Of a stretch of DNA of 64,000 bases, positions 10,638 to 50,941 are shown in pieces. The notes under the pieces were generated by a model that was given only the letters and a program-made list of their open reading frames with translations, made no database searches and was not told where the DNA came from. Both the position numbers and the translations under genes were made by a program. Source of the stretch: Polyangiaceae bacterium (GTDB taxonomy: Bacteria > Myxococcota_A > Polyangia > Polyangiales > Polyangiaceae); assembly GCA_019637265.1 (NCBI GenBank), contig JAHBVY010000002.1, positions 682,001-746,000 on the forward strand, written 5' to 3'. Position 1 is the stretch's first letter, and the number at the start of each line of letters is the position of its first letter.

Positions 10638-11378
10638 TCAACGCCGCCAGAGCCGACGTTCATCCTCGAACAAGCGACCCAGACGCAGCTGCTCCCGAAT
10701 GAAGGCGGCGTAGCTCTGCGGCACCCGCGGGTCCTTCGCGAACACCCCGTGCACCTCCGCGGCGGCCACCGCGTCATCCGTCGCGCGGTGCGCCTGCTCG
10801 ATGCGGATCCCGAGGCGCTCACACACCTCGCCCAGGCTCTTGCTCCGCTCGTCCTTCTGGAGCTCCCGTGCCCAGATCAGCGGATCGAGCCACTCGATAC
10901 CCTCGCGCGCCGCGGGCGGCAGCGGCCCTGACGGGAGCGCGCAACGCGCGAGCTCCGCGTGCAGGAAGGCGCGGTCGAACTCCGCGTTGTACGCGAGCGG
11001 CACCCCCTGACGCATCGCCTCCAAGATCTCCCCGGCGACGTCGGCGAACTTCGGCTTCCCCTGCACGTCCTCATCGCGGATACCGTGCACTTCGGTGGAC
11101 TCCGGTGGGATCGGCACCTCCGGATCGATGAGCCAGCTGTGCCGCCCGAGCACGCGCCCGTCTTGCCACACCACGCACGCCACCTCGATCACCCGATCGA
11201 CTGACGGATCGCGCCCCGTGGTCTCGGTGTCGATGGACACCACCGGCAGGTCGCGCATCGGGGCGTGAGCATCGTACTCCTCCGCCAGACCCGCGGCGCT
11301 CACCCGCAGCAGGTGCGCGATGCCTGGGTAGTGACGCCCGGTGGGGAAGCACCCACCGCCTTCCATCCCCGATCTCAC
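10638..11378 (-). CDS. DEDDh 3-prime to 5-prime exonuclease (DnaQ/RNase T fold)
   Basis: 246 residues. The three exonuclease motifs are in order: Exo I D-T-E-T-T-G (about 50), Exo II A-Y-N-A-E-F-D-R-A-F (about 132) and Exo III H-R-A-T-D-D-A (about 213), giving the DEDD acids and the catalytic His. S-L-G-E-V-C-E-R-L-G-I precedes Exo III as in DnaQ-type proofreading subunits. Family knowledge: metal-dependent removal of 3-prime nucleotides from DNA or RNA. It is shorter than a polymerase but full length for a stand-alone nuclease. The GTG start at 11378 overlaps the stop of the upstream DsbA-like gene (GTGA), indicating translational coupling; ATG codons at 11366 or 11258 are alternatives. Confidence 0.87.
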   Translation of the reverse strand: MRSGMEGGGCFPTGRHYPGIAHLLRVSAAGLAEEYDAHAPMRDLPVVSIDTETTGRDPSVDRVIEVACVVWQDGRVLGRHSWLIDPEVPIPPESTEVHGIRDEDVQGKPKFADVAGEILEAMRQGVPLAYNAEFDRAFLHAELARCALPSGPLPPAAREGIEWLDPLIWARELQKDERSKSLGEVCERLGIRIEQAHRATDDAVAAAEVHGVFAKDPRVPQSYAAFIREQLRLGRLFEDERRLWRR

Positions 11379-12355
11379 GGAAGGTCGCCCGAGTCGGCTG
11401 GCTCGCCCGAAGGAGCCGCCGCCGCGCCCTTGGGGACCGGCTTGGGCGCGACGTCCTTACCCGTGCGCAGCTTGATTTCGAGCTGGATGAACTCCGTCAG
11501 GTCTTCTTCGTAGTCGAAGTGCCCGCCGGTGAAGTGGCGCCCATTGATGTAGATCATGGGGGTGCCCTGGAGGCCGAGCTTGTCACCCAGCTTCTTGTCG
11601 GCCTGCACGGCGTCGGCCACCGCCTCGCTCTCGTAGTCCTTGATGAACTGCGCCATGTCCAAGGAGAGCTGCTTCGCGAACAGGGAGTAGTCCTTGGTGA
11701 GCTTCGCCTGGTTCGCGAAGAGCAGCTCGTGCATCTCCCAGTATTTGCCCTGCTTGCCAGCGGCCACGGCGGCGCGCGCGGCGTACTCGGCGTTCTCATG
11801 GCTCGCGAGCGGGTAGTTCTTGAACACCAAGCGCACGTGCTCCGGGAACTGCTGGAGCATCCGCGTCATCAGCGGGTTCACGGCGGCGCAGTGGGGGCAC
11901 TGGTAGTCGGCCCACTCCACCACCGTGACCACGGCGTCCTTCGGGCCCTTGGAGGGGGAGTCGCCGAGATCGATCGACTTCACCTCCTCAGCGGCGAATC
12001 GCACCCGGAACGCGCCCTCCGCCTGAGCCCGTGTGCGGCCCCGCCGCACCTGCGTGCGCAGGAACTCCGCCGCGGGCCGGCAGGCCTCACACGGGCGGCT
12101 CTCCTTGACGCACTGAGCGATGTTCACCGGCTGATCCGCGCACGGCGCCAACAGCTCGGTCACGTAGGTGGACCACTCACGCTGCTCGCGCCGCGTGAGC
12201 TCGGAGGTGTCCACCCCGGGCAGCTCCACGGGGCCGGTGGTCGCGGGATCGGCGCTGGGCGCCCCACCTGCCTCGCCAGGCGATCGGCAGGAGCTGAAAT
12301 TCAGCTGCATCAGCCCGAGCAGGGCAACAGTGAGGGTGCTTCGGAGCGCGCGCAT
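11375..12355 (-). CDS. DsbA/thioredoxin-4-like lipoprotein
   Basis: 326 residues. The signal peptide ends in a lipobox-like F-S-S-C (near 22). A Cys-rich spacer (P-C-A-D-Q, Q-C-V-K, P-C-E-A-C) leads to a thioredoxin-fold domain (about 125-295) with active site C-P-H-C in Y-Q-C-P-H-C-A-A and a cis-Pro signature G-T-P-M-I-Y-I-N-G. An alpha-helical insert lies between them, as in DsbA. Family knowledge: periplasmic thiol oxidation or isomerisation. The tail is Pro/Ala-rich. It is the first gene of a coupled pair with the exonuclease. The same fold occurs twice in the giant protein at 33311, so the genome invests in membrane-tethered DsbA-like domains. Confidence 0.87.
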   Translation of the reverse strand: MRALRSTLTVALLGLMQLNFSSCRSPGEAGGAPSADPATTGPVELPGVDTSELTRREQREWSTYVTELLAPCADQPVNIAQCVKESRPCEACRPAAEFLRTQVRRGRTRAQAEGAFRVRFAAEEVKSIDLGDSPSKGPKDAVVTVVEWADYQCPHCAAVNPLMTRMLQQFPEHVRLVFKNYPLASHENAEYAARAAVAAGKQGKYWEMHELLFANQAKLTKDYSLFAKQLSLDMAQFIKDYESEAVADAVQADKKLGDKLGLQGTPMIYINGRHFTGGHFDYEEDLTEFIQLEIKLRTGKDVAPKPVPKGAAAAPSGEPADSGDLP

Positions 12356-12620: not shown

Positions 12621-14228
12621 ATGGCTAGCAGTCCGAGCTCTCCGCCGGACTCCCTGTACCCCTTCTCGGGGGTTGGGAGCCATGAGGAGCAATTGGAGGC
12701 CCCTCGGGTGGCGCGCCACGTCATCGCGGTGGCGGGCGGTCGGGGCGGCGTCGGCAAGAGCATCGTTGCGGTGAACCTGGGGGTCTACCTGGCCCAGCTG
12801 GGGCGCACCGTGGTGGTGGTGGACGCCAACTCCGCTGGCGCCGATTTGCACACCCTGCTCGGGGAGGCGATGCCCACCGGCCGGCCCGGGGGCGAGGCCA
12901 CCGAGGACGAGGAGCTGACCCCGATCAAGACCCAAGTGCCGGGCATGCTGCTCCTGCCCCAGGCCTACTCGCAGAACTCGACGGTGCCGCTCCGCCCAGG
13001 CCGGAAGCCGCGCTGGGCGTTCCACGTGCGCCAGCTCGACGTAGACTACGTGATCCTCGATTTGGGCGCGGACACCGCACCGGCGACGCTCGACTTGTTC
13101 CTGAGCGCCGACGTAGGGCTCACCGTGACCGCCCCCGAGCCACCCAGCGTGGAGGCCACTTACCGCTTCGTCAGGGCGCTGTTCCAACGCAAGCTGCGCC
13201 GCGCGCTCCTGAAAGATCGCTTCAAGGTGCGCATGGTGGAGCGCGCTCAAGAGCCGCTGCCGCCGCTGCCGTCGCCCATCGAGCTGGTGCGCGCCATCGC
13301 GCGCTACGACGGCGGCACCGCGGAGCTCGCGGCCGCGGAGCTGGCGAAGCTCAGGCCGCGCCTCATCGTGAACTCTGCGCGTCTCCGCACGGATAATGAT
13401 CTAGGGCCGGCCATGGTCGACATGGGGCGGCGCTACTTGGGCGTGGAGTTCGACTACGTGGGGCACATCGAGCAAGAAGACTCGGTGTGGCTCAGCGTGG
13501 TGCGGCGGCGCCCGCTCTTGATAGACAGCCCCACGAGCAAAGCGGCGCGCAACATCGAGCGCATCGCGCGCCGCATCTTGGCGCTGGTCACCACCCGCGA
13601 GCAGGCGAAGGTGGCGACGCCCGTGCCGCTGGTGCGCTCCGAGCCCAACCTCTATGAGTCCCTGTGGACCCACCGCGGCGCCACGGACGAAGAGCTGCGC
13701 CGCGCCTACAAACGCCAGCGCGAGATCTACCTCCCGGACAGCCTGCCCCTCACCTCGCTGCTCACCGAAGAGGAGCTCGCGCGGGAGCGCGCGCGGGTGG
13801 ACGAAGCCTACGACACCCTGCTCGACCCGATCCGGCGCCGAGCTTACGACAAAGCCACCTTCCCTGAGCAAGACTCGAGCGCCGAGGCCCCACGCCCCGA
13901 GGTGGACGCCGCCCTCGCCGCCGAGCGCGCGATGCTGCGCGCCGAGCTGGCGCGAGAAATCCACCCGGAAACGGAGTTCACCGGGGAGCTCTTGCGCAAG
14001 GTGCGGCAGAGCCTCGGCATCGAGCTGGAGGAGATCGCCGGGAAGACGAAGATCAGCCTGGCGCACCTGCGCGCCATCGAAGAGGAGGACTTCAAGGCCT
14101 TGCCCGCCGCGGTCTACGCGCGCGGCTTCGTCCACGAGATAGCCAAGCTCCTCAAGGTGGACCCGACTCAAGTCAGCCGTACTTACCTGAAGCGCCTGCG
14201 CGCCGCGCGCGGCGCATCCGGTGAGTGA
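12621..14228 (+). CDS. ParA/MinD-like ATPase fused to J-like and HTH_25 domains
   Basis: 535 residues. The N-terminal P-loop ATPase (about 34-330) has G-G-R-G-G-V-G-K-S at 39-47 and V-V-V-V-D-A-N near 69. The signature lysine of the deviant Walker A (K-G-G-x-G-K) is Arg here. A J-like helical segment follows (about 345-415: Y-E-S-L-W...R-R-A-Y-K-R-Q...A-Y-D-T-L-L-D-P-I-R-R-R-A-Y-D) with L-P-D in place of HPD, so Hsp70 stimulation is doubtful. The C-terminus (about 450-520) is a RodZ-like HTH_25 helix-turn-helix (L-R-K-V-R-Q-S-L-G-I-E-L-E-E-I-A). Inference: a positioning or scaffold ATPase. Its stop overlaps the next gene by 8 nt. Confidence 0.78.
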   Translation: MASSPSSPPDSLYPFSGVGSHEEQLEAPRVARHVIAVAGGRGGVGKSIVAVNLGVYLAQLGRTVVVVDANSAGADLHTLLGEAMPTGRPGGEATEDEELTPIKTQVPGMLLLPQAYSQNSTVPLRPGRKPRWAFHVRQLDVDYVILDLGADTAPATLDLFLSADVGLTVTAPEPPSVEATYRFVRALFQRKLRRALLKDRFKVRMVERAQEPLPPLPSPIELVRAIARYDGGTAELAAAELAKLRPRLIVNSARLRTDNDLGPAMVDMGRRYLGVEFDYVGHIEQEDSVWLSVVRRRPLLIDSPTSKAARNIERIARRILALVTTREQAKVATPVPLVRSEPNLYESLWTHRGATDEELRRAYKRQREIYLPDSLPLTSLLTEEELARERARVDEAYDTLLDPIRRRAYDKATFPEQDSSAEAPRPEVDAALAAERAMLRAELAREIHPETEFTGELLRKVRQSLGIELEEIAGKTKISLAHLRAIEEEDFKALPAAVYARGFVHEIAKLLKVDPTQVSRTYLKRLRAARGASGE

Positions 14229-31947: not shown

Positions 31948-32042
31948 CAGACCCCGCGCACTGAGCGTCGCCGCAGTCTCTGGCTGACCCTGCGCGTCAC
32001 GAGGCACCGCTCGCAGCGCCCCTGTGCTATGGCCGGCGGGTG

Positions 32043-33059
32043 ATGCCGAAGCGCTCCTCCAAGCTCCCCGCGCGCGTGAAGCTCGCCGTGCGCGGCCCTC
32101 GCGCGCTGGCCGCCGGCTTGCTCCTCGCGTCCCTGGCGCTGCCGGGCGTCGCCAGCGCGGCGGTGGTCGAGCGCGTGGTGGCGGTGGTCGGTGAACAGGC
32201 CATCTTACTTTCAGATCTACGCGCGCGCGCTCGGCCGGTGCTGCTGCGCGTCTACCAGAGCACCCCCGCGGGCGCGCAGCGCGCGGCGGCGAGCGGCCAG
32301 GTCTACAAAGAGGTGCTCGAGCGCATGGTGGACGATGAGCTCCAGCGCCGCGCCGCCAACCAGGCGCGCATCACCGTCAGCGCTCAGGAGATCGACGACG
32401 CGATGGCGCGCGTCGCGCGCCAGAACCGCATCACGGTGGAGAAGCTCATCAGCGAGGCCACCGGAGGCGGCCTCACCCTGGCGGACTACCGCGCGGAGCT
32501 CCGGCGTCAGCTGCTAGAAGCGAAGCTCCTGAACCTGCGCATCGCGGGGCGCATCCGCGTCACCGAGCCCGACCTTCGCTCGAGCTACCGCCGCATCGTG
32601 CTCGAGGAGCGCCGCAAGCTGAGCTTCCGCATCGCGTGGATCCACATCCCGGCGGGCGAGCACAACAGCCCGGAGCGCCAACAGCAGCAGCGGCTCGCGC
32701 GCCAAGTCGCCGCGGAGGCGAAGACGGGCGACTTCGCCCAGCTCGCCGCGCGTCACTCGGCGGACGCCGCCACCCGCGCCCAGGGTGGCCTGCTCCCACC
32801 GCAGCTGCCGAGCGCCCTCCCCCGCGAGCTGGCCCGCGCCGTCCTCGAGCTCGAGGTGGGTCAGGTCGCCGAGCCCATCCGCGTGGCGGACGCCTTCGTG
32901 ATCGTGAAGTTGGTGGAGCGCGAGGAGTCCGAGCTGCCCACCTTCGACGAAGCGAAGGAACAGCTCTACAGCCGCGTCTACATGGAAAAAATGGGCAAGG
33001 CCCGCGACCAGTGGCTCCGCAGCCTGCGCAGCCGCACCCACGTCGAAGTGCGCCTGTAG
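32043..33059 (+). CDS. SurA-like periplasmic peptidyl-prolyl isomerase
   Basis: 338 residues. Signal peptide (L-A-A-G-L-L-L-A-S-L-A-L-P-G-V-A-S-A), then the SurA N-domain start V-V-E-R-V-V-A-V-V-G-E-Q-A-I-L-L-S-D-L, a helical chaperone region (about 50-180) and one parvulin domain (about 190-290: A-W-I-H-I-P-A-G, F-A-Q-L-A-A-R-H-S-A-D, Q-G-G-L-L-P, A-V-L-E-L-E-V-G-Q-V-A-E-P-I). Two-parvulin SurA is longer (about 430), so this is a one-parvulin form. Role: folding of outer-membrane proteins in the periplasm. ATG at 32043 is preferred over GTG just before it. Its stop TAG is part of a GTAG-type palindrome. Confidence 0.87.
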   Translation: MPKRSSKLPARVKLAVRGPRALAAGLLLASLALPGVASAAVVERVVAVVGEQAILLSDLRARARPVLLRVYQSTPAGAQRAAASGQVYKEVLERMVDDELQRRAANQARITVSAQEIDDAMARVARQNRITVEKLISEATGGGLTLADYRAELRRQLLEAKLLNLRIAGRIRVTEPDLRSSYRRIVLEERRKLSFRIAWIHIPAGEHNSPERQQQQRLARQVAAEAKTGDFAQLAARHSADAATRAQGGLLPPQLPSALPRELARAVLELEVGQVAEPIRVADAFVIVKLVEREESELPTFDEAKEQLYSRVYMEKMGKARDQWLRSLRSRTHVEVRL

Positions 33060-33310: not shown

Positions 33311-36300
33311 CTAGCGGCCGCAGATCGCATCGTACATGGCTTGACGCTGGGTGCCGCTCTGCAGCAGGCGGCGCGTCAGGCGCAGCTCGGACTCCACCAC
33401 CACCTCGAACGCCTCGTAAGGCAACGCGCCCTCGATGCGGCGACCGTTGACGTAGAAGGTAGGCGTGCCCTTGGCGCCCACCCGATCGGCCTCACGCACG
33501 TCCGCGTCGATCAGGGCGCGATGCGCGCCGCCCAGCGCCCGCTCGAGGCCGCTCGGCGCGAGCCCGAGCTCTTCACCCAAGCGCAGCAGCGCGGCATCCG
33601 AGAGATCGTCCTGAGCGCCGAACAGCGCGTCGTGTAGGCTCCAGAAGCCCTTGTTCCCCAAGCGCTTGTGCGCCTCGATCGCCACGCCCGCGGCGGGGCG
33701 CGCGCGGGGGTGACTCGAGAGCGGCAGGTGCTTCCACACGAGGCGCAAGTCCTTGGGGTAGCGGCGCGCCAAGCGCTTCAAGGCGGGCTCCACCTGAGCG
33801 CAGTACCGGCACTCGAACTCCGAGAACTGCACGACGGTGACCAGCGCGTCGTCCGCGCCAAACACTGGTGAGCCGAGCACCGCCGGGCACACCCGCACCG
33901 GCACATCCTCCCCCACGTCAATCAGGTGCTTCTTCAGCCGCGCTGGGTACACCTCGGCGCGCGGCAAGCCGCCGGCGAGCAAGCTGCGCGCGCCGCTCAC
34001 CTCGCTCTGAATCAAGCGGCTCAGCGCGCTCCGTGGGAAGAAACCATCCAAGATTTGCCCATTGAGCACCAAGGTGGGCGTGGAGCGCACCCCGAAGCGC
34101 ACCCCGAGCGCCCTGTCCTCCGCCACCTGGCGCGCCGCCTCCGTGTCCTTCGCCAGCGCCGCCGCGTCCATCGTCAAACCCACTGACTTACCCGCGCGCA
34201 CCAGGGCGGCGTCGGTCGGCGCCTCGCTGGTGCGGCGCCAAGCGGCGAGCAGACGCCAGAACGCCTCGCCCCCCTCGGCGCGAGCCAGCGCGGCGCTCAG
34301 GTTCGCCGCGGGCAGCGCGCGCGGGTGACCCGCGAGCGGCGTGTGCACCCACGCGATGCGCAGCGCATCCGGGAAATCGCTCATCAGCTGAAACAGTACC
34401 GTGAGCTGACGGCGCGTGTGCCTGCACTCCAGGTCGCCGAACACCACCAGCGTCGCCAAGGCCTGCCCTTGTCCCCACACCGGGGTGTGCTCGAGCAGCG
34501 GGAGCAGGGCCGCGCGCTCGTCGGGGCGGGGCGCGCCCACCACCAGCGACGTGCCCGGAGGCAGCGCTGGGCCCGTGTCCGGCTCGGGCGCAGCGCCCGC
34601 CGCGCCCGTGGTGGCCGGCGGCACGCCTGAAGCGGCGCCGAAGCCGCCCGCACCACCGACGCCAGTCACACCCCCCGCGCCCACGAAGCCGCCCACGCCA
34701 CTGGCGGTGCTCGCCGTGGGCGGTCCCGAGGCGCCACGAGAACCCAAGGCGCGCACCACGAACGAGCCCCCCACTCCGAGCAAGATCACCGTCAGCGCCG
34801 TGATCCCCGTCACCAACAAGAAGCCCCGTAGCCGCCGCTCGCCCTCGACCTCCAAGGTCTGTTCCGACTTGGGCCCCGGCTGCTCCACCTTGGGCCCCGG
34901 CTCTGCCGCACCTTCAGGCGCAGCACTGGGCAGCGCAGCACCAGGCGGCGCAGCGCTCACCGCACCTGGCGACGCTGCATGAGGCAGCACACCTGGCGCT
35001 GGATGCAGCGGCGCGCCAGGCGCCGCACCGCGCAGCGCAGCATGAGGCAGCGCAGCGCTAGGCGGCACCAAACTCGCTGCACCTGGCGACGCTGCATGAG
35101 GCAGCGCCACGCCAGGTACCGACGTCAGCATGCCTGATGACGCAGCAGCGTGTAGCGGAGCCGCTGGGGAGTGAGTCAACGTAGCCGACGATGCAGCCGG
35201 CGCCGCGTGAGGCAGCGCCTCAGGCGGCACACCCAGAGCAAGGGAGCTAGTCAGTAACCCAGTTGATGCGTCCAGCGGCGAAGCGGTGGGCGAGCTAGTC
35301 AGTGATCCAGATGATGCATCCGGCTCGCCGCCAACGGGCTCATCCACCGCGGCCGTGGCGTCATTAGAAGCCGCGCGCTGGATTTCGGGCGGCACGAAGC
35401 GGCCGGGCGCCTCCGGTAGCGCGTCGGCGAACGACGCCTTGGGTCGCGGCGCGAGCCAGCTCGGCGGCGGGAGATCGGCCACCACCTTGCTACCCGCGCG
35501 CGGCGCCTCCGCCCCGACGCCCGGCGCTCGCGGCGCCTCAGCCTCGAAGCCCGGCGTCCGCGGCGCGCCCGCTGCTGATCCATCACTCGACGCGCCCGCT
35601 GCTGCGCCGTCGCGCGGCGCACCCCAGGTGCCTCCTGGAGCCGATAGCTCACCTGTCGCAGCACCATCATGCGCGGCGCCCGCTCCATCGTGCGCTGCAC
35701 CTGAGGGCGGCCACGGGGGGCCGCCCCTACGTACGCTGTGGCCAGCCGTACATGCGCCGTCGCGCGCTGCGCCCGCACCACCGCCAGCCGCATCCACGCT
35801 CCCAGCGACACCCTCCGGCGCGATCCTATCCCCGCTCACCGGACTCCGAGCGACACCACGCGCCGCACCGCTCAGCGCCGCGCCGCTCACGGAGGCGCTG
35901 GTGACCTCCTCCAATAGGGCCTCTTCCGCGAGCTGCATCAGCCCTCGCCACCAGCTGCGAAGGTCAGCTGGGCGTTCTGACAGAACCTCTGACCAGGCAG
36001 GGCGGAGAGCGGCGCGCAGCGCCTCCAGCCCAGAGGGAGGTAGCAGCCCGTCGATGACCGCCGCCAGCGAGTAGACGTCGCTGTAGGGGCTTGGTGAGGC
36101 GCCCGCGGTGACCTCGGGCGCTCGGAGGGGTTCAGGCGTCAGCGCGCGCACGGCGTCCGCACCACAAGCCCGTAGCGCCAGCTCCACGAGCCCCATGCCA
36201 GCGAGCGCCAGTTGGGGCGATGGCGGATTGGCTTGAAGCGTCTGCAGCGCCCATGGTGCGCCTGAGCCGCCGCTACCCGTTGTGACGAGCAGAGCGGGCG

Positions 36301-36679
36301 TCACCGCGCCGTGAAACAAGCCACGATCATGCAAGGTAGTCAGGCACTCGAACACCGGCTTCAGCGCCTGCAAGAGCTCCCCAACCCCCCAAAAATTCCG
36401 CGAGGAAATCGGCTGCGAGTCGGCGTCGAGCTCGCTGACCACCCACACCGGCCCCTCCCCGCTCACGGCAGCAGGCGGGAGGAGGCCTGGTGCCCCCAAG
36501 CACGCGAGCCGCGACTGACGCCGCCACGCGTCCGCCTCCGCGTACTCACCTGGGAGCTCGACCAGCAGCGCGCGACCGCTGCCACCGCTCGCGAACGCGA
36601 CGACGGGGCACTCGGGCCCCAGCCCCCAGAGCACCTGCTCCACCCGGTACCCGAGCGCCTGCGAGCCCACCACCAGCAT
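33311..36679 (-). CDS. transmembrane pseudokinase fused to two DsbA-like thioredoxin domains
   Basis: 1122 residues from ATG 36679, chosen because M-L-V-V-G-S-Q-A-L-G-Y-R-V matches the start pattern of other kinases here (M-S-L-T-A-G-T-Q-V-G-D-Y-R-V); the frame is open 96 codons further. A kinase-like fold (about 10-275) has lost every catalytic motif: L-V-E-L for the beta-3 lysine, L-F-H-G-A-V-T-P for HRDLKP (123-128), G-M-G for DFG (161); A-P-E and S-D-V-Y-S-L remain. An Ala/Pro/Ser linker (about 300-610) leads to a membrane helix (about 616-640). Outside are two thioredoxin folds: the first has C-R-H-T (near 750), the second a full C-R-Y-C (near 955); both keep a T-P-T cis-Pro. Inference: a redox sensor or oxidase tethered to a cytosolic scaffold. 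Confidence 0.85.
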   Translation of the reverse strand: MLVVGSQALGYRVEQVLWGLGPECPVVAFASGGSGRALLVELPGEYAEADAWRRQSRLACLGAPGLLPPAAVSGEGPVWVVSELDADSQPISSRNFWGVGELLQALKPVFECLTTLHDRGLFHGAVTPALLVTTGSGGSGAPWALQTLQANPPSPQLALAGMGLVELALRACGADAVRALTPEPLRAPEVTAGASPSPYSDVYSLAAVIDGLLPPSGLEALRAALRPAWSEVLSERPADLRSWWRGLMQLAEEALLEEVTSASVSGAALSGAARGVARSPVSGDRIAPEGVAGSVDAAGGGAGAARDGACTAGHSVRRGGPPWPPSGAAHDGAGAAHDGAATGELSAPGGTWGAPRDGAAAGASSDGSAAGAPRTPGFEAEAPRAPGVGAEAPRAGSKVVADLPPPSWLAPRPKASFADALPEAPGRFVPPEIQRAASNDATAAVDEPVGGEPDASSGSLTSSPTASPLDASTGLLTSSLALGVPPEALPHAAPAASSATLTHSPAAPLHAAASSGMLTSVPGVALPHAASPGAASLVPPSAALPHAALRGAAPGAPLHPAPGVLPHAASPGAVSAAPPGAALPSAAPEGAAEPGPKVEQPGPKSEQTLEVEGERRLRGFLLVTGITALTVILLGVGGSFVVRALGSRGASGPPTASTASGVGGFVGAGGVTGVGGAGGFGAASGVPPATTGAAGAAPEPDTGPALPPGTSLVVGAPRPDERAALLPLLEHTPVWGQGQALATLVVFGDLECRHTRRQLTVLFQLMSDFPDALRIAWVHTPLAGHPRALPAANLSAALARAEGGEAFWRLLAAWRRTSEAPTDAALVRAGKSVGLTMDAAALAKDTEAARQVAEDRALGVRFGVRSTPTLVLNGQILDGFFPRSALSRLIQSEVSGARSLLAGGLPRAEVYPARLKKHLIDVGEDVPVRVCPAVLGSPVFGADDALVTVVQFSEFECRYCAQVEPALKRLARRYPKDLRLVWKHLPLSSHPRARPAAGVAIEAHKRLGNKGFWSLHDALFGAQDDLSDAALLRLGEELGLAPSGLERALGGAHRALIDADVREADRVGAKGTPTFYVNGRRIEGALPYEAFEVVVESELRLTRRLLQSGTQRQAMYDAICGR
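35706..35730. repeat. GTAGGGGC palindrome inside coding linker
   Basis: GGCGGCCACGGGGGGCCGCC followed by CCTAC; nearly identical to the intergenic copy at 49054. It is read in frame on the minus strand as V-R-R-G-G-P-P-W-P-P in the pseudokinase-thioredoxin linker. Confidence 0.85.
36379..36397 (-). repeat. dispersed G-rich motif, copy 9 (in coding sequence)
   Basis: CCCCAACCCCCCAAAAATT within the pseudokinase C-lobe; on the coding strand it encodes N-F-W-G-V-G. Confidence 0.7.
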
Positions 36680-37021
36680 ACGCCCCACGTATAGCGCGAC
36701 GGAGCGCGCCCCACCCCCAGCTATGGCAACCACGAGCTCATGACAGAATGTCAGGCGCGCCACGCGCAGGCGCCACTTCGGCGCGGCCATGAGGAGCAGT
36801 CCGCCTCGCGCGAGCAGCTCCAACCAGGTGCCGACGAGCAGCGACCCTGCCTGCCTAGCCTCACGGCGATGGTCCGCGATGGCTCCGCGCGCCGCGTCTC
36901 GCGTCGATCGCGCAGCACCAAGCGATGGCGCGGTGGGTCGTCGCGGCGACGGCTGCCTCGCGTTCACCTACCACGGCAACGGTTTGCGCCATGGCACGCT
37001 CTGTGCTCAAACGGCCTGGCC
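36680..37021. other. divergent region between pseudokinase-Trx and MXAN_2561-like genes
   Basis: 342 bp. The pseudokinase frame is open through most of it, so it could be coding if an upstream start is used. No clear promoter or repeat seen. Confidence 0.4.
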
Positions 37022-38089
37022 ATGTTCGGCGCCCTTCCCTCCTCGCTCCGGCGCGCCCTCGCGCTGCTCGGGCTCACCCTCGCCAGCGCGCTCCACGCCG
37101 CGCCCGCCGGCGCTCAGACGCTCACCCTGAACACGACCAACTACGGTCGCACCCCGGAGGTGAGCCGTCAGAACGCCGACCTGAACAAGGCCATCGCGCT
37201 GAGCGACTGCGAGGCGGACGGCCGCTACAGCCTCTACCTCCAGCGCACGGGCCCCGCCGCCAGCACGCTCCGGGTGTTCGTCAGCACGGGTAACGACTGC
37301 TCGGTGAAGGACAACCGCACCCGCGACAAGGGCTGCATCGAGATCCACTCGCAGGCCGACAACGCCGCGAACTACACGCTGGATCTGTACTTCCGCGACA
37401 TCATCGCCGCGCACCGCACCGGCAGCGCGCGCTGCGCCGCGTTCGATGAAGCCTGCAAGCAGAACGCCTGCACGGATGAGGACAACGGCACCCGCAAGAC
37501 GCTGACCTTGTGGTTCATGCTCGACAACTCGTCGGACACCGCCATCAACCAGCTCAGCTGGGACACCAGCTACGACCTGGCGGGGCCGCCCGCGCCCGCC
37601 GGCGTCAGCGCGGGGATCGGTGAGGAGCAGCTCACGGTGAGCTGGCGCGCCCCCACGGACACTGACCTCGCGTCGTACCGGTTCTACTGTGACTCGGCGG
37701 CGGGCGGCGGGGACGGTGGCGGCGCTTGCACCAGCGCGGCGCTGGTGCCGGGGGAGGTGCCTTCATCGGAGTATGAGTGCGGCTCCAACTCGTCGCGCAC
37801 GGCGACCAGCGGCACCGTGAGCGGGCTCACCAACTTCCAAGAGTACGTGGTGGGGGTGTCGGCGGTGGACAACCTCGGCAACGCGGGGCCCCTCTCGGAG
37901 CTGGTGTGCGCGACGCCGGAGCCGGTGGACGACTTCTTCGAGCTCTATCGCCGCGCAGGGGGCAAAGGCGGCGGTGGCTACTGCGCGATGAGCCCGAGTC
38001 AGGCGCCGGCGCGCCCGCTGGGTGTGGTAGTGGGTCTCGGCATGTTGGGTTGGTTCTTGCGGCGGCGCGCGCAGCGGGAGGCGCGGTGA
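37022..38089 (+). CDS. MXAN_2561-like secreted protein with FnIII and MYXO-CTERM-like tail
   Basis: 355 residues from ATG 37022, which opens a good signal peptide (L-R-R-A-L-A-L-L-G-L-T-L-A-S-A-L). The N-terminal domain (about 33-180) has several cysteines (S-D-C-E, N-D-C-S, K-G-C-I, R-C-A-A, K-Q-N-A-C). A fibronectin type III-like domain follows (about 190-300: A-P-A-G-V-S-A-G-I-G-E-E-Q-L-T-V-S-W). The C-terminus has a G-G-G-Y-C stretch, a hydrophobic helix (L-G-V-V-V-G-L-G-M-L-G-W-F-L) and R-R-R-A-Q-R, the layout of MYXO-CTERM sorting signals. As I recall, this family is regularly paired with the MXAN_2562 barrel; here GTGA overlap joins them. Likely surface-anchored. Confidence 0.78.
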   Translation: MFGALPSSLRRALALLGLTLASALHAAPAGAQTLTLNTTNYGRTPEVSRQNADLNKAIALSDCEADGRYSLYLQRTGPAASTLRVFVSTGNDCSVKDNRTRDKGCIEIHSQADNAANYTLDLYFRDIIAAHRTGSARCAAFDEACKQNACTDEDNGTRKTLTLWFMLDNSSDTAINQLSWDTSYDLAGPPAPAGVSAGIGEEQLTVSWRAPTDTDLASYRFYCDSAAGGGDGGGACTSAALVPGEVPSSEYECGSNSSRTATSGTVSGLTNFQEYVVGVSAVDNLGNAGPLSELVCATPEPVDDFFELYRRAGGKGGGGYCAMSPSQAPARPLGVVVGLGMLGWFLRRRAQREAR

Positions 38090-47025: not shown

Positions 47026-48849
47026 TCACCGAACACAACGAGCCCAGACCGCATGGGCCACGCCGGCGCCGTAGGTGCTGCCATCGCCGAAGGACACGAC
47101 CCATCCGCTGGACGAACCGGAGACCGGAGAGGCACTCCAATAGAAACTCGACTGTGTACCTGAGAATAGGGTCAGATCAATGTGCGGTGACACTGCCTTG
47201 CGTCCGGGCACCAGGCTGCTCAGCTCGGCCACGGTGGGCAGGCGCCAGTCCGTCTTCCCGCCTAGCGACAGGCCCTCGCAATAGCTGACAGAATCCACCT
47301 GGTACTGCTGACCGGGCGATGTGCTACGCTGCCACTCGAGCCCCGTGGCGTGGTCCAACACCGTGTCACCCGTGACTTCGAAGAAGTGACCACTCGCGGG
47401 GATGGGCCGCTGAGAAGTGCCCTCCGCCACGCAACGCACACGCCTTGTCTCGCCTGAGCTCGATGCGCCAACAAACCCACCGCTGAACGCTACGAACCAC
47501 TTATTGCCATCGGTTCGCCCCGAGGCTGACCAAAACCCCGCGCTGGGGGTGCTGGGGAACGCATCGCTATCTATCGCTGGGTTAACCCGCCCATAGTCCA
47601 CCAGGGAGAGCAGCTCCATTCGCGTCGGCAAGCGCCAGTCCTTACGCCCGCCCCACGTAAGCCTGTCACAGTAGCTCACCGCCTGTGTCCAATCGAGTTC
47701 GTTGGTCGCGGGCTCACGTTGCCACAGCAGGCCCGTCACGTTGTCCAACACCGTCTTATCAGCCTCATTCACTGTGTAGCTGTGCGGGTGGCCCGGCGTG
47801 CCTGGCAGCGGGCCGCGAGCGTAGCCGTCATAGTCTGCGTAGCGAACGCCCTCGCACCTCGCGAACTCGCAATAGGGAAGGTCCCCAGAACAGGCTGCAC
47901 CCCGCACTGAGGTGCTCAAGCCATCTCCAGCGCAGTCCATGGGCTGATTGCCATCACAGTAGGCTTCACCAGCCGGGCACACCCAAGGCTCACACACGCC
48001 CGCGCGACAGGTCGCACCTGGATCACCGCTCTGACCATCACTGCAGGCCGCACCGAGCGGCGCCGAGTTCACGCCGTCCACAGAGCAGCGGCGCGGCTGC
48101 GCCCCGTCGCAGTAGTCCGTGCCTGGCTCACACGCCCAAGCGGCACACTCGCTGCCGTTCACGCAGCTCTGACGATCCCCACACGGCCACTCCTCCTCCG
48201 AGGTGCCGTTCGTGGAGCAGACGACGCGCTCCAGCCCTTGGCAGTAGGTCGCGCCTGGGACACAGATGCGCGCCTTGCACGCGCCGCCCTCACAAACCTC
48301 GCCCGCCCGGCAGTTCAGCGTCTCGATGAGAGTGAAGCCATCTTCGGAGCACACTTCCACTTGACCGCTGCCATTGCAGTGAGTCCCCGGGCGGCATGCG
48401 CGAGTCTCACAGCGGCCGTCCACACACTGATTCACGCCACAGGGCTCGCGCCTCGTCACCGCCAAGCCATCCGCCGCGCAGGTGACCACCGTGTTCCCCT
48501 CGCAGCGCACGCTCGCCGGCTCACACACCGTGGCCACGCAGGCGCCATTGGCGCAAGCCGGCGTGTCCCCGGAGCACACCTCCTGAAGCTCGAAGCCGTC
48601 CCCGTCTGCTCGGCACACCTCCACCGCGGTGCTCTTGCAGCGCAGCTCCCCTGCCTCACACAAGGGCGTGCCCGCGTTGATGGTGTTCTCCTTGCTGCCA
48701 CAACCGCCGGCGCTGAGCGCCCCAAGCGCTAGGAGCAGCGCGGCGCTCAGGGCATTGAACGGCGGATGGAGTGGGATGCGGAACCACGCGGCGCCCCACG
48801 CCCGGCACCTTGGCCCGCTGCGCCCAGCGCGGTGCTGGCAAACCCCCAA
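47026..48849 (-). CDS. Cys-rich lipoprotein with two DUF1566 domains; 5-prime end frame problem
   Basis: About 607 codons open. Lipobox A-G-G-C near 50, then about eight Cys-rich modules (C-E-P-x...C-x-G-x...C) to about 335, then two DUF1566 (Lcl C-terminal) domains with W-Q-R-E...Y-C-D-R-L-T-W-G-G-R-K-D-W-R-L-P-T (about 370) and W-Q-R-S...D-W-R-L-P-T (about 510). In this frame there is no ATG or GTG before the lipobox, only TTG at 48849. A good start (GGGAGGAGG, ATG at 48872) lies in another frame that ends at a stop inside the signal region. The paralog at 49151 has an intact start. So this copy is either frameshifted or uses TTG. Probable surface protein of unknown ligand. Confidence 0.8.
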   Translation of the reverse strand: MGVCQHRAGRSGPRCRAWGAAWFRIPLHPPFNALSAALLLALGALSAGGCGSKENTINAGTPLCEAGELRCKSTAVEVCRADGDGFELQEVCSGDTPACANGACVATVCEPASVRCEGNTVVTCAADGLAVTRREPCGVNQCVDGRCETRACRPGTHCNGSGQVEVCSEDGFTLIETLNCRAGEVCEGGACKARICVPGATYCQGLERVVCSTNGTSEEEWPCGDRQSCVNGSECAAWACEPGTDYCDGAQPRRCSVDGVNSAPLGAACSDGQSGDPGATCRAGVCEPWVCPAGEAYCDGNQPMDCAGDGLSTSVRGAACSGDLPYCEFARCEGVRYADYDGYARGPLPGTPGHPHSYTVNEADKTVLDNVTGLLWQREPATNELDWTQAVSYCDRLTWGGRKDWRLPTRMELLSLVDYGRVNPAIDSDAFPSTPSAGFWSASGRTDGNKWFVAFSGGFVGASSSGETRRVRCVAEGTSQRPIPASGHFFEVTGDTVLDHATGLEWQRSTSPGQQYQVDSVSYCEGLSLGGKTDWRLPTVAELSSLVPGRKAVSPHIDLTLFSGTQSSFYWSASPVSGSSSGWVVSFGDGSTYGAGVAHAVWARCVR

Positions 48850-49150: not shown

Positions 49151-50941
49151 TCACCGGACGCAGCGCACCCAGTGCGCGTAGGTCGCGGGGGAGTTGCCGA
49201 CTTGGCCGTTGTGGAAGCCCACGACCCACACGGCGGATGAACCGGAGAACTGAGAGGTGGTCCAGTAGAAGCTGGACTGCGTACCTGGGAATATCGTCAG
49301 GTCCGTGTACGGTGAGGCAGACTTACGACCTGGCACCAGGTTGCTCAGCTCGGCCACGGTGGGCAGGCGCCAGTCCGCCTTCCCATCCAGCAACAGGCCT
49401 TCACAGTAGCTCACCGCGTCCGCGTGGTTGTGTGTGCTGAGTGAATTCCCGCGCTGCCACTCGAGCCCCGTCGCGTGGTCGACCACCGTGCCACCCGTGA
49501 CCTCGAAGAAGTGGCCACTCACGGGGATGGGCCGCTGAGGGGTATCCTCCGCCACGCAGCGCACGCGCCGTGAGGCGCTTGGGCTCGATGTGTAGGCGCT
49601 CCCAGAGACGAACTCCAGGCACCACTTATTGCCATTGGTTCGCCCCGTGGCTGACCAGAACTCCACGCTTGGGGTGCTGGGGAACGCGACGCTGTCTATC
49701 GCGGGGGTGTTCCGCCCGTAGTCCACTAGGGAGCGCAGCTCCATCCGCGTCGGCAAGCGCCAGTCGCTGCGGCCACCCCACTCCAGATCGTCGCAGTAGC
49801 TCGCCGCCTGTGCCCAAGTGAGGCCGCTCGGCGCAGGCTCCCGCTGCCACAGCAGGCCGGTCACGTTGTCCAGCACCGTCTTGGCGGCCTCATCGAAGCT
49901 GTAGCTGCGCGGGTGGCCCGGCGTACCTGGCTGCGGACCGCGCGCGTAACCATCGTAGTCCTCGCAAGCCCCGACGATGCAAGCCTGGGCGCTCAGGCAG
50001 GCGGCGCCCAGGCTTACGGAGGTCAGGCCATCTGACGCACAGCTACGTGGCTCAGCACCCTCGCAGTAGTCCGCGCTCGGCTCGCAAACCCAAGGCTCAC
50101 ACACCCCCGCGCTGCACTTCGCCTGGACGCAAGGCGGCAAGGCCACCGAGCTCAGCCCATCAGCCTGGCAGCGCCGCGGCTCGTCCCCATCACAGTAATC
50201 AGCGCCTGCGTCGCACACCCAGTCCGCGCACTGACCGTCACCCACGCAGCTCTGTCCAACATCGCACGGCGACGACGCCTCCGAAGAGCCGCTCGCCGAA
50301 CAGATAGTTGGTATGCCTTCCTTACAATACCTGGTATTGGGCTCGCATAGCAGCGCCTGGCACTCGCCGTCCTCACAGCGCTCCGTCGCAGAGCAGCTCC
50401 GCGTCTCGATGAGGGTGAAGCCATCTGCGGAGCATACCTCCACTTGGTTCTGGGTGTTGCAGTGAGTGCCCGGGCGGCACACCCAGCTCTCGCACTGGCC
50501 GTCGAAGCACCGCTGGTTCACGCCGCAGGGCTCGCGCTGCGTCACCGCCAGGCCGTCCGCCGCGCAGGTGACCACCGTGTTCCCCTCGCAGCGCACGCTC
50601 GCCGGCTCACACGCCGTGGCCACGCAAGCACCATTCACGCAAGCCGGTGTGTCCCCGGAGCACACCTCCTGAAGCTGGAAGCCGTCCCCGTCCGCTCGGC
50701 ACACCTCCACCACAGTGCTCGTACACCGCAGCTCCCCCGCCTCACACAAGGGCGTGCCCGCGTTGACGGCGTTCTCCTCACTGCCACAACCACTGGCGCT
50801 GAGCGCCCCCAGCGCCAACAACAAACCCACGCCAAGGACGCTGAGCGGACGAACGCCAGCAGCTAGCGGGCGATGACGGCGCCGGCTTCGACCGTTCGGC
50901 TCACTGCCGAACCCCCGCAACCCATGATCTCGTTTGGTCAT
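49151..50941 (-). CDS. Cys-rich lipoprotein with two DUF1566 domains (paralog)
   Basis: 596 residues. ATG with GGGAGG 6 nt upstream. Signal peptide with lipobox S-A-S-G-C near 52, then Cys-rich modules and two DUF1566 domains as in the downstream paralog (W-R-L-P-T-R-M-E-L-R-S-L and W-R-L-P-T-V-A-E-L-S-N-L). The two genes are a tandem duplication; the block encoding the first modules (about 50508-50770 against 48430-48680) is nearly identical while the middle modules have diverged. DUF1566 is common in large surface proteins of Polyangia. Function unknown; probably outer-membrane exposed and disulfide-rich. Confidence 0.85.
   Translation of the reverse strand: MTKRDHGLRGFGSEPNGRSRRRHRPLAAGVRPLSVLGVGLLLALGALSASGCGSEENAVNAGTPLCEAGELRCTSTVVEVCRADGDGFQLQEVCSGDTPACVNGACVATACEPASVRCEGNTVVTCAADGLAVTQREPCGVNQRCFDGQCESWVCRPGTHCNTQNQVEVCSADGFTLIETRSCSATERCEDGECQALLCEPNTRYCKEGIPTICSASGSSEASSPCDVGQSCVGDGQCADWVCDAGADYCDGDEPRRCQADGLSSVALPPCVQAKCSAGVCEPWVCEPSADYCEGAEPRSCASDGLTSVSLGAACLSAQACIVGACEDYDGYARGPQPGTPGHPRSYSFDEAAKTVLDNVTGLLWQREPAPSGLTWAQAASYCDDLEWGGRSDWRLPTRMELRSLVDYGRNTPAIDSVAFPSTPSVEFWSATGRTNGNKWCLEFVSGSAYTSSPSASRRVRCVAEDTPQRPIPVSGHFFEVTGGTVVDHATGLEWQRGNSLSTHNHADAVSYCEGLLLDGKADWRLPTVAELSNLVPGRKSASPYTDLTIFPGTQSSFYWTTSQFSGSSAVWVVGFHNGQVGNSPATYAHWVRCVR

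Follow-up and report, generated by a model that had tools for sequence, protein, structure and literature searches.

A predicted membrane pseudokinase joined to a monothiol and a dithiol DsbA-like domain in a Polyangiaceae bacterium and its relatives

Introduction

What can a kinase fold that has lost its catalytic residues contribute to a protein that carries two DsbA-like domains on the other side of a membrane? This question is raised by a gene on the reverse strand of a 64,000-nucleotide stretch of a Polyangiaceae bacterium genome (contig JAHBVY010000002.1; this whole stretch is called the window below). The gene encodes, in one chain, a predicted pseudokinase domain (N-domain), a long linker, a single transmembrane helix, a monothiol DsbA domain (domain 1) and a dithiol DsbA domain (domain 2). 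An initial annotation, made from the letters alone, had noticed this order and proposed either that an outer redox state is passed to cytosolic partners or that the inner domain only positions an oxidase. Here, we describe the conservation of the gene, the state of its domains and its relatives, and we tentatively favor a receptor-like role for its product.

One intact gene with a conserved domain order

The gene starts with an ATG at 36679, ends with a stop codon at 33313-33311 and encodes 1122 amino acids (aa), exactly within the limits first assigned to it. The same frame is open farther upstream, as far as a GTG at 36967; despite this, the ATG is taken as the start because the ortholog starts align there. 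Including the window protein, 11 orthologs were found in seven genera of one bacterial family (the others are G001, G066, G014, G130, G033, G127, G007, G057, G156 and G131). All of them are encoded in one open frame, none is split into two genes, a split that the initial annotation had named as refuting, and the congener ortholog has almost the same length (1124 aa). Because the same domain order recurs in orthologs down to approx. 35% identity, chance is excluded as its source. Thus, a single intact gene is conserved in related soil bacteria.

The ortholog searches used domain queries instead of the whole protein. A whole-protein single-sequence scan of the genome contigs had returned no match, its patterns being located in fast-evolving parts. 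Three orthologs (G057, G156 and G131) were found via the neighboring outer-membrane protein (OMP) gene, i.e., by synteny, and not via a sequence pattern. The view that the family is confined to four genera, which was based on the pattern FGDLxCxHT, was superseded in this way, as synteny added three genera in which the motif reads CPYT or CPAT or the cysteine is missing. The 11 orthologs are therefore a lower bound.

A kinase fold without catalytic residues

Aligned with intact kinases, the window protein has E41 in the slot of the catalytic lysine, HGA at the HRD position and GMG at the DFG position, and all three catalytic motifs are lost in every ortholog aligned. Structural residues of the fold, namely APE (187-189), D201 and R236, are still present in the window protein, and the kinase fold with LHDxG/APE/DVxxL is kept across six of the seven genera. 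Pfam recognizes only the C-terminal half of the window protein, and its N-domain searched alone has no Pfam match at E up to 10. Among the seven ortholog N-domains scanned, a set that includes this unmatched one, six match Pkinase (best E 3.5e-8). A profile of seven sequences matches intact kinases in hhalign with 99.1% probability (E 8.9e-19) over the C-lobe.

Structure prediction, which had been named at the outset as decisive for the kinase assignment, returned a kinase fold. With the seven-sequence alignment, AlphaFold2 modeled the N-domain, including an N-lobe in the window protein, with a predicted local distance difference test score (pLDDT) of 79 and a predicted template modeling score (pTM) of 0.77; two of the five models were of low quality (mean pLDDT 52-56). 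Foldseek retrieved 1067 PDB chains with this model at E<=1e-3, with PknI of Mycobacterium tuberculosis ranked first, and VIA-align gave a best Z of 17.9 (root-mean-square deviation (rmsd) 2.9, 218 residues), and each of the 1000 chains reached Z >=8. Judged by its sequence, the N-domain is a pseudokinase, i.e., it has a Hanks kinase fold whose catalytic motifs are degraded.

A monothiol and a dithiol DsbA domain

In the C-terminal half, Pfam detects Thioredoxin_4 in two stretches (1.1e-26) and DSBA (2.6e-23). Both domains have the DsbA/Thioredoxin_4 fold with its helical insert and cis-Pro according to Pfam and AlphaFold2, and TP stands before NG in each. The AlphaFold2 model of the tandem has a pLDDT of 88. 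In VIA, it aligns via domain 2 with BdbD (Z 22.9, rmsd 1.7, 173 residues) and also with ScsC (Z 22.6) and DsbA proteins; the matches cover Z 14.7-22.9 and lie mostly on domain 2, with 3gyk on domain 1 (Z 21.5). UGGT chains are the only Foldseek top matches that span both domains (E 3.4e-9), but they do so with a TM-score of 0.40 and an rmsd of approx. 15, and UGGT has no row in the VIA alignment list of the tandem model. A UGGT-type likeness of the modeled pair is a weak structural hint.

The motifs first read as C-R-H-T and C-R-Y-C are located at C752-T755 and C957-C960, and the periplasmic cysteine set is nearly fixed among the 11 orthologs: C752 in domain 1 and C931, C957, C960 and C1120 in domain 2. 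The CxxC of domain 2 is found in 10 orthologs; the eleventh, G131, has wholly lost this domain and retains the N-domain, the transmembrane helix and the monothiol domain 1. C931 and C1120 are present in all 10 orthologs with domain 2, and neither position exists in G131. Since both cysteines occur with domain 2 and both are gone in its absence, a disulfide between them is likely, and they probably form a structural disulfide of this domain.

Domain 1 had initially been called degenerate, which does not agree with its conservation. C-x-x-T is kept in 10 of the 11 orthologs (CxHT in eight, otherwise CPYT and CPAT), and FGDLxCxxT is the longest invariant and most conserved block of the domain. 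Domain 1 therefore looks like a maintained monothiol domain. A general decay of domain 1 was considered and rejected on these grounds, although G057 did lose the cysteine.

Membrane topology and selection

Hydropathy indicates a single transmembrane helix and no N-terminal signal peptide in the window protein; together with Pfam and AlphaFold2, this bears out the one membrane helix and two thioredoxin folds proposed earlier. Lys and Arg are more numerous N-terminal to the helix in all eight tested orthologs, the net charge being less clear. This bias favors a location of the N-domain in the cytosol and of the DsbA domains in the periplasm. The linker is long, as had been noted, but comprises approx. 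358 residues rather than the 300 first estimated; its length is similar in the congener G001 and much shorter in other genera.

For the pair of the window protein and G001, the ratio of nonsynonymous to synonymous substitution rates (dN/dS) is near saturation, and the main statement on selection rests on genus g14 instead. The dN/dS ranges within this genus are 0.12-0.20 (domain 2), 0.21-0.28 (domain 1), 0.25-0.35 (N-domain) and 0.19-0.44 (linker and transmembrane helix together). By these ratios, purifying selection still acts on the N-domain, which is less constrained than domain 2.

Comparison with known systems

The initial annotation knew of no described protein with this domain order, which was too strong. 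PknE (Rv1743) of M. tuberculosis consists of a kinase domain (1-289), a transmembrane helix (337-359) and a DsbA-like domain (377-566) (PMC3792642). The same plan of a kinase fold inside, one transmembrane helix and a predicted extracytoplasmic DsbA-like domain is present in one chain in the window protein. PknE, however, is annotated as a Ser/Thr kinase and has a single DsbA domain, of the CPPC type, whereas the window protein has none of the catalytic motifs (β3 Lys, HRD Asp, DFG Asp) and two DsbA domains, one with C-x-x-T and one with CxxC. EssB/YukC are likewise membrane pseudokinases that are degraded in all three motifs, but EssB belongs to type VII secretion in Firmicutes, where DsbA domains are unreported (PMC12599244). 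The oxidoreductases BdbD, ScsC and DsbA share the fold of each DsbA domain and differ as single-domain enzymes without a kinase-like domain. A further membrane protein, MviN (Rv3910), has a pseudokinase that docks the FHA protein FhaA; unlike the window protein, it is a lipid II flippase without a redox domain.

Myxobacteria, thioredoxin and DsbA are not mentioned in a review of bacterial pseudokinase families such as ActPs1-3, GLW, CP1, DYD and DLHK (PMC12599244). In a literature search that left most subscription journals outside its coverage, no relevant paper joined "pseudokinase" and "DsbA" and none described the combination. What is new here is the fully dead kinase together with a monothiol/dithiol DsbA tandem, while the order kinase-transmembrane helix-DsbA is known from PknE.

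Gene neighborhood and candidate partners

Ten of the 11 orthologs occupy one and the same gap, flanked by surA on one side and the fn3/OMP genes on the other; SprT-like and recA genes lie farther out. The G001 contig is too short and only its fn3 side is visible. In every locus whose contig reaches that far, surA, which encodes an OMP chaperone, adjoins the ortholog. In G150, a congener of G156, surA directly adjoins fn3, which represents the empty site.

In five of the 11 genomes, all in genera g14 and g33, the next gene downstream is co-directional with the ortholog, almost abuts it and encodes an intact membrane kinase (e.g., L058 3495-5192 (-) and L059 6100-7755 (+)). Its product has an N-terminal region with multiple transmembrane segments and intact HRD and DFG motifs, and it is a candidate partner of the pseudokinase. 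A constant operon with this membrane kinase was rejected, because it occurs in only two of the seven genera. The genome of the window protein matches the abutting kinase only in the kinase domain, among approx. 90 kinase-like matches. This genome also encodes VKOR and a DsbA-type domain in one 395-aa frame (G000:C16:387982-388968), a candidate membrane oxidase for the DsbA domains, and a DsbD-type protein; domain 2 could be serviced by either.

Related tandem-DsbA and kinase-DsbA proteins

Tandem-DsbA matches are found in all 60 searched genomes of the family, and the tandem proteins examined mostly lack kinase domains. In the genome of the window protein, two such proteins of 665 and 787 aa differ from it by having three DsbA domains, mostly with CPFC, a transmembrane or lipid anchor and no kinase domain. 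In a single-domain tree, domain 2 of the window protein falls within the second-domain clade of these proteins (SH-aLRT 98), and domain 1 groups weakly with first domains; the simplest reading of this tree is that the window protein lost a third DsbA domain.

Two further proteins with kinase, transmembrane helix and tandem DsbA domains are encoded at other loci in G004 and G040, which belong to the same bacterial family. The G004 protein (L106 1200-4001 (-)) has two DsbA domains, and its kinase domain keeps the Lys and both Asp residues (HQD, DLG) and is possibly active. The G040 protein (L063 1934-5137 (-)) has a pseudokinase with Glu for Lys, HGN and DLG, a transmembrane helix and three CPFC DsbA domains; its HGN resembles JAK JH2 pseudokinases. 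Both come from sister genera and share the architecture of the window protein, but their kinases are much less degraded and all their DsbA domains are of the CxxC type. Together with the window protein, they form a graded series of kinase loss on a common plan, which need not stem from a single fusion event.

The genes for the 665- and 787-aa proteins are adjacent (L068 5685-10046; G000:C12:335684-340045), encode three Thioredoxin_4 domains each and are flanked by Ser/Thr kinase genes, one of them with two kinase domains. In G018 (L062), a double-kinase gene likewise adjoins a tandem-DsbA gene. Losses of the resolving cysteine are seen elsewhere as well. In a tandem-DsbA protein of G043 (L066 1647-4676 and 4115-6580), all resolving cysteines are changed to Thr or Ser (CPFT, CPFS, CPFT). 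A second tandem protein of G007 (L084 4808-6646 (-)) has CEPC in its first and CPHT in its second domain, which argues that the monothiol form arose more than once.

Proposed role and alternative explanations

The likeliest role of the window protein, with a probability of about 0.45, is that of a PknE-like receptor for envelope thiols or folding, which passes the inner membrane once and uses its dead kinase to dock a partner. Domain 2 would exchange disulfides with periplasmic clients, and domain 1 would bind clients or, because it has no resolving cysteine, hold a long-lived mixed disulfide with them. The occupancy or redox state of the DsbA pair would be relayed across the membrane to the pseudokinase. 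Rather than being an enzyme itself, the pseudokinase would serve an active Ser/Thr kinase as a docking or allosteric partner. This role draws on the PknE precedent, the conserved fold, the C-x-x-T motif, the purifying selection on the N-domain, the adjacent kinase, the surA neighbor, the G131 ortholog and the G004/G040 gradient. Two findings lend circumstantial support to the earlier idea of an outer redox state that is passed to a cytosolic partner: the kinase gene adjacent in two genera, and G131, which lacks the CxxC domain but keeps the rest. The passage of a signal across the membrane is inferred, and several observations weigh against a receptor. The N-domain belongs to the parts that evolve fastest: its identity is 34-40% in pairs whose domain 2 is 47-61% identical. 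G033 and G127 are without most of the N-lobe, which argues that ATP binding is not the conserved function; the N-domain of G131 has a C-lobe without APE and the alpha-F Asp, and domain 1 of G057 is without any cysteine. The membrane kinase gene is absent beside most orthologs, including that of the window, and its membrane part is unmatched in the window protein's own genome. A more specific version, which we regard as rather unlikely, is a surA-linked sensor in which the monothiol domain captures unfolded or reduced periplasmic clients as mixed disulfides, this state is relayed via the transmembrane helix and the dead kinase switches a partner Ser/Thr kinase. Such a sensor, with the same reservation, would be a bacterial analogue of an unfolded-protein receptor in logic, not in homology.

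Nearly as likely as the receptor is a membrane-anchored periplasmic oxidoreductase or isomerase of the local tandem-DsbA family, which aids the folding of SurA clients; domain 2 would be the enzyme, domain 1 would bind clients, and the former kinase would be an anchor or a drifting remnant. This explanation fits domain 2 as the most constrained part, the tandem matches in all 60 genomes with mostly kinase-free proteins, the SurA neighbor and a VKOR-DsbA fusion that could reoxidize domain 2. It also fits an N-domain that evolves about as fast as the linker and has partly lost its N-lobe in two orthologs. However, G131 kept the N-domain and yet lost the CxxC domain, and free drift would not preserve the kinase fold and its LHDxG/APE/DVxxL residues across six of seven genera. 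In addition, a kinase domain is unneeded for anchoring, because the sister tandem proteins do without one. The proposal that the inner domain only positions the oxidase likewise misfits G131 and may hold elsewhere. It is improbable that the N-domain retains nucleotide-dependent or atypical catalysis despite its motif loss. Some pseudokinases, among which SidJ is discussed, act through unusual active sites (PMC12599244), and the predicted fold of the window protein includes an N-lobe, but the three catalytic residues (Lys, HRD Asp and DFG Asp) have been lost without a shared substitute, and most of the N-lobe is missing in two orthologs. Finally, the greatly varying linker length between genera and open antisense frames might point to two genes read as one or to a decaying pseudogene, but such an artefact is hardly credible in view of the one-gene order in 11 genomes, the purifying selection in every segment and the congener of 1124 aa.

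The receptor and the anchored oxidoreductase predict opposite outcomes for a deletion of the cytosolic domain alone. Moreover, the family offers natural variants for asking whether kinase-DsbA fusions such as PknE sense redox or client state: a dead kinase combined with a monothiol and a dithiol domain, a variant that lacks the dithiol domain, another that lacks the monothiol cysteine, and sisters whose kinases are nearly intact. A transmembrane receptor that has no kinase activity would set sensing and docking apart from phosphorylation, and the conserved C-x-x-T DsbA domain is a candidate for a natural mixed-disulfide trap.

Coordinates and further observations in the window

Table 1. Features of the pseudokinase-DsbA gene and its two neighbors (window positions).
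Feature	Position	Strand	Basis
Whole gene: pseudokinase, linker, transmembrane helix, monothiol DsbA, dithiol DsbA	33311..36679	-	1122 aa, single open frame
N-terminal pseudokinase domain, aa 1-257	35909..36679	-	AlphaFold2, Foldseek/VIA, hhalign, Pfam on orthologs
H123-G124-A125 at HRD position, catalytic Asp lost	36305..36313	-	alignment with intact kinases
G161-M162-G163 at DFG position, metal Asp lost	36191..36199	-	alignment with intact kinases
A187-P188-E189, retained APE	36113..36121	-	alignment
Ala/Pro/Gly-rich linker, aa 258-615, with short 15- and 30-bp repeats	34835..35908	-	sequence
Single transmembrane helix, aa ~616-642	34754..34834	-	hydropathy, Lys/Arg counts
DsbA domain 1 (monothiol), aa 722-920	33920..34516	-	Pfam, AlphaFold2, ortholog alignment
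C752-R-H-T755, active-site motif of domain 1	34415..34426	-	ortholog alignment
DsbA domain 2 (dithiol), aa 928-1122	33314..33898	-	Pfam 1.1e-26; BdbD Z 22.9
C957-R-Y-C960, redox motif of domain 2	33800..33811	-	CxxC in 10/10 orthologs with domain 2
C931, putative structural disulfide partner of C1120	33887..33889	-	ortholog co-occurrence
C1120, putative structural disulfide partner of C931	33320..33322	-	ortholog co-occurrence
SurA-type periplasmic chaperone/peptidyl-prolyl isomerase gene, convergent neighbor	32040..33059	+	Pfam SurA_N 9e-17, Rotamase; synteny
fn3 protein, divergent neighbor, likely start ~37022	36740..38089	+	Pfam fn3; synteny

A single-domain DsbA/Thioredoxin_4 protein is encoded at 11375-12355 (-), approx. 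21 kb from the pseudokinase-DsbA gene. At 12621-14228 (+), a 535-aa protein has an unusual combination of ParA-like, DnaJ and HTH_25 (RodZ-type) domains. Two adjacent genes at 47026-48849 and 49151-50941 (-) encode Lcl_C domain proteins of similar size, which probably arose by duplication.

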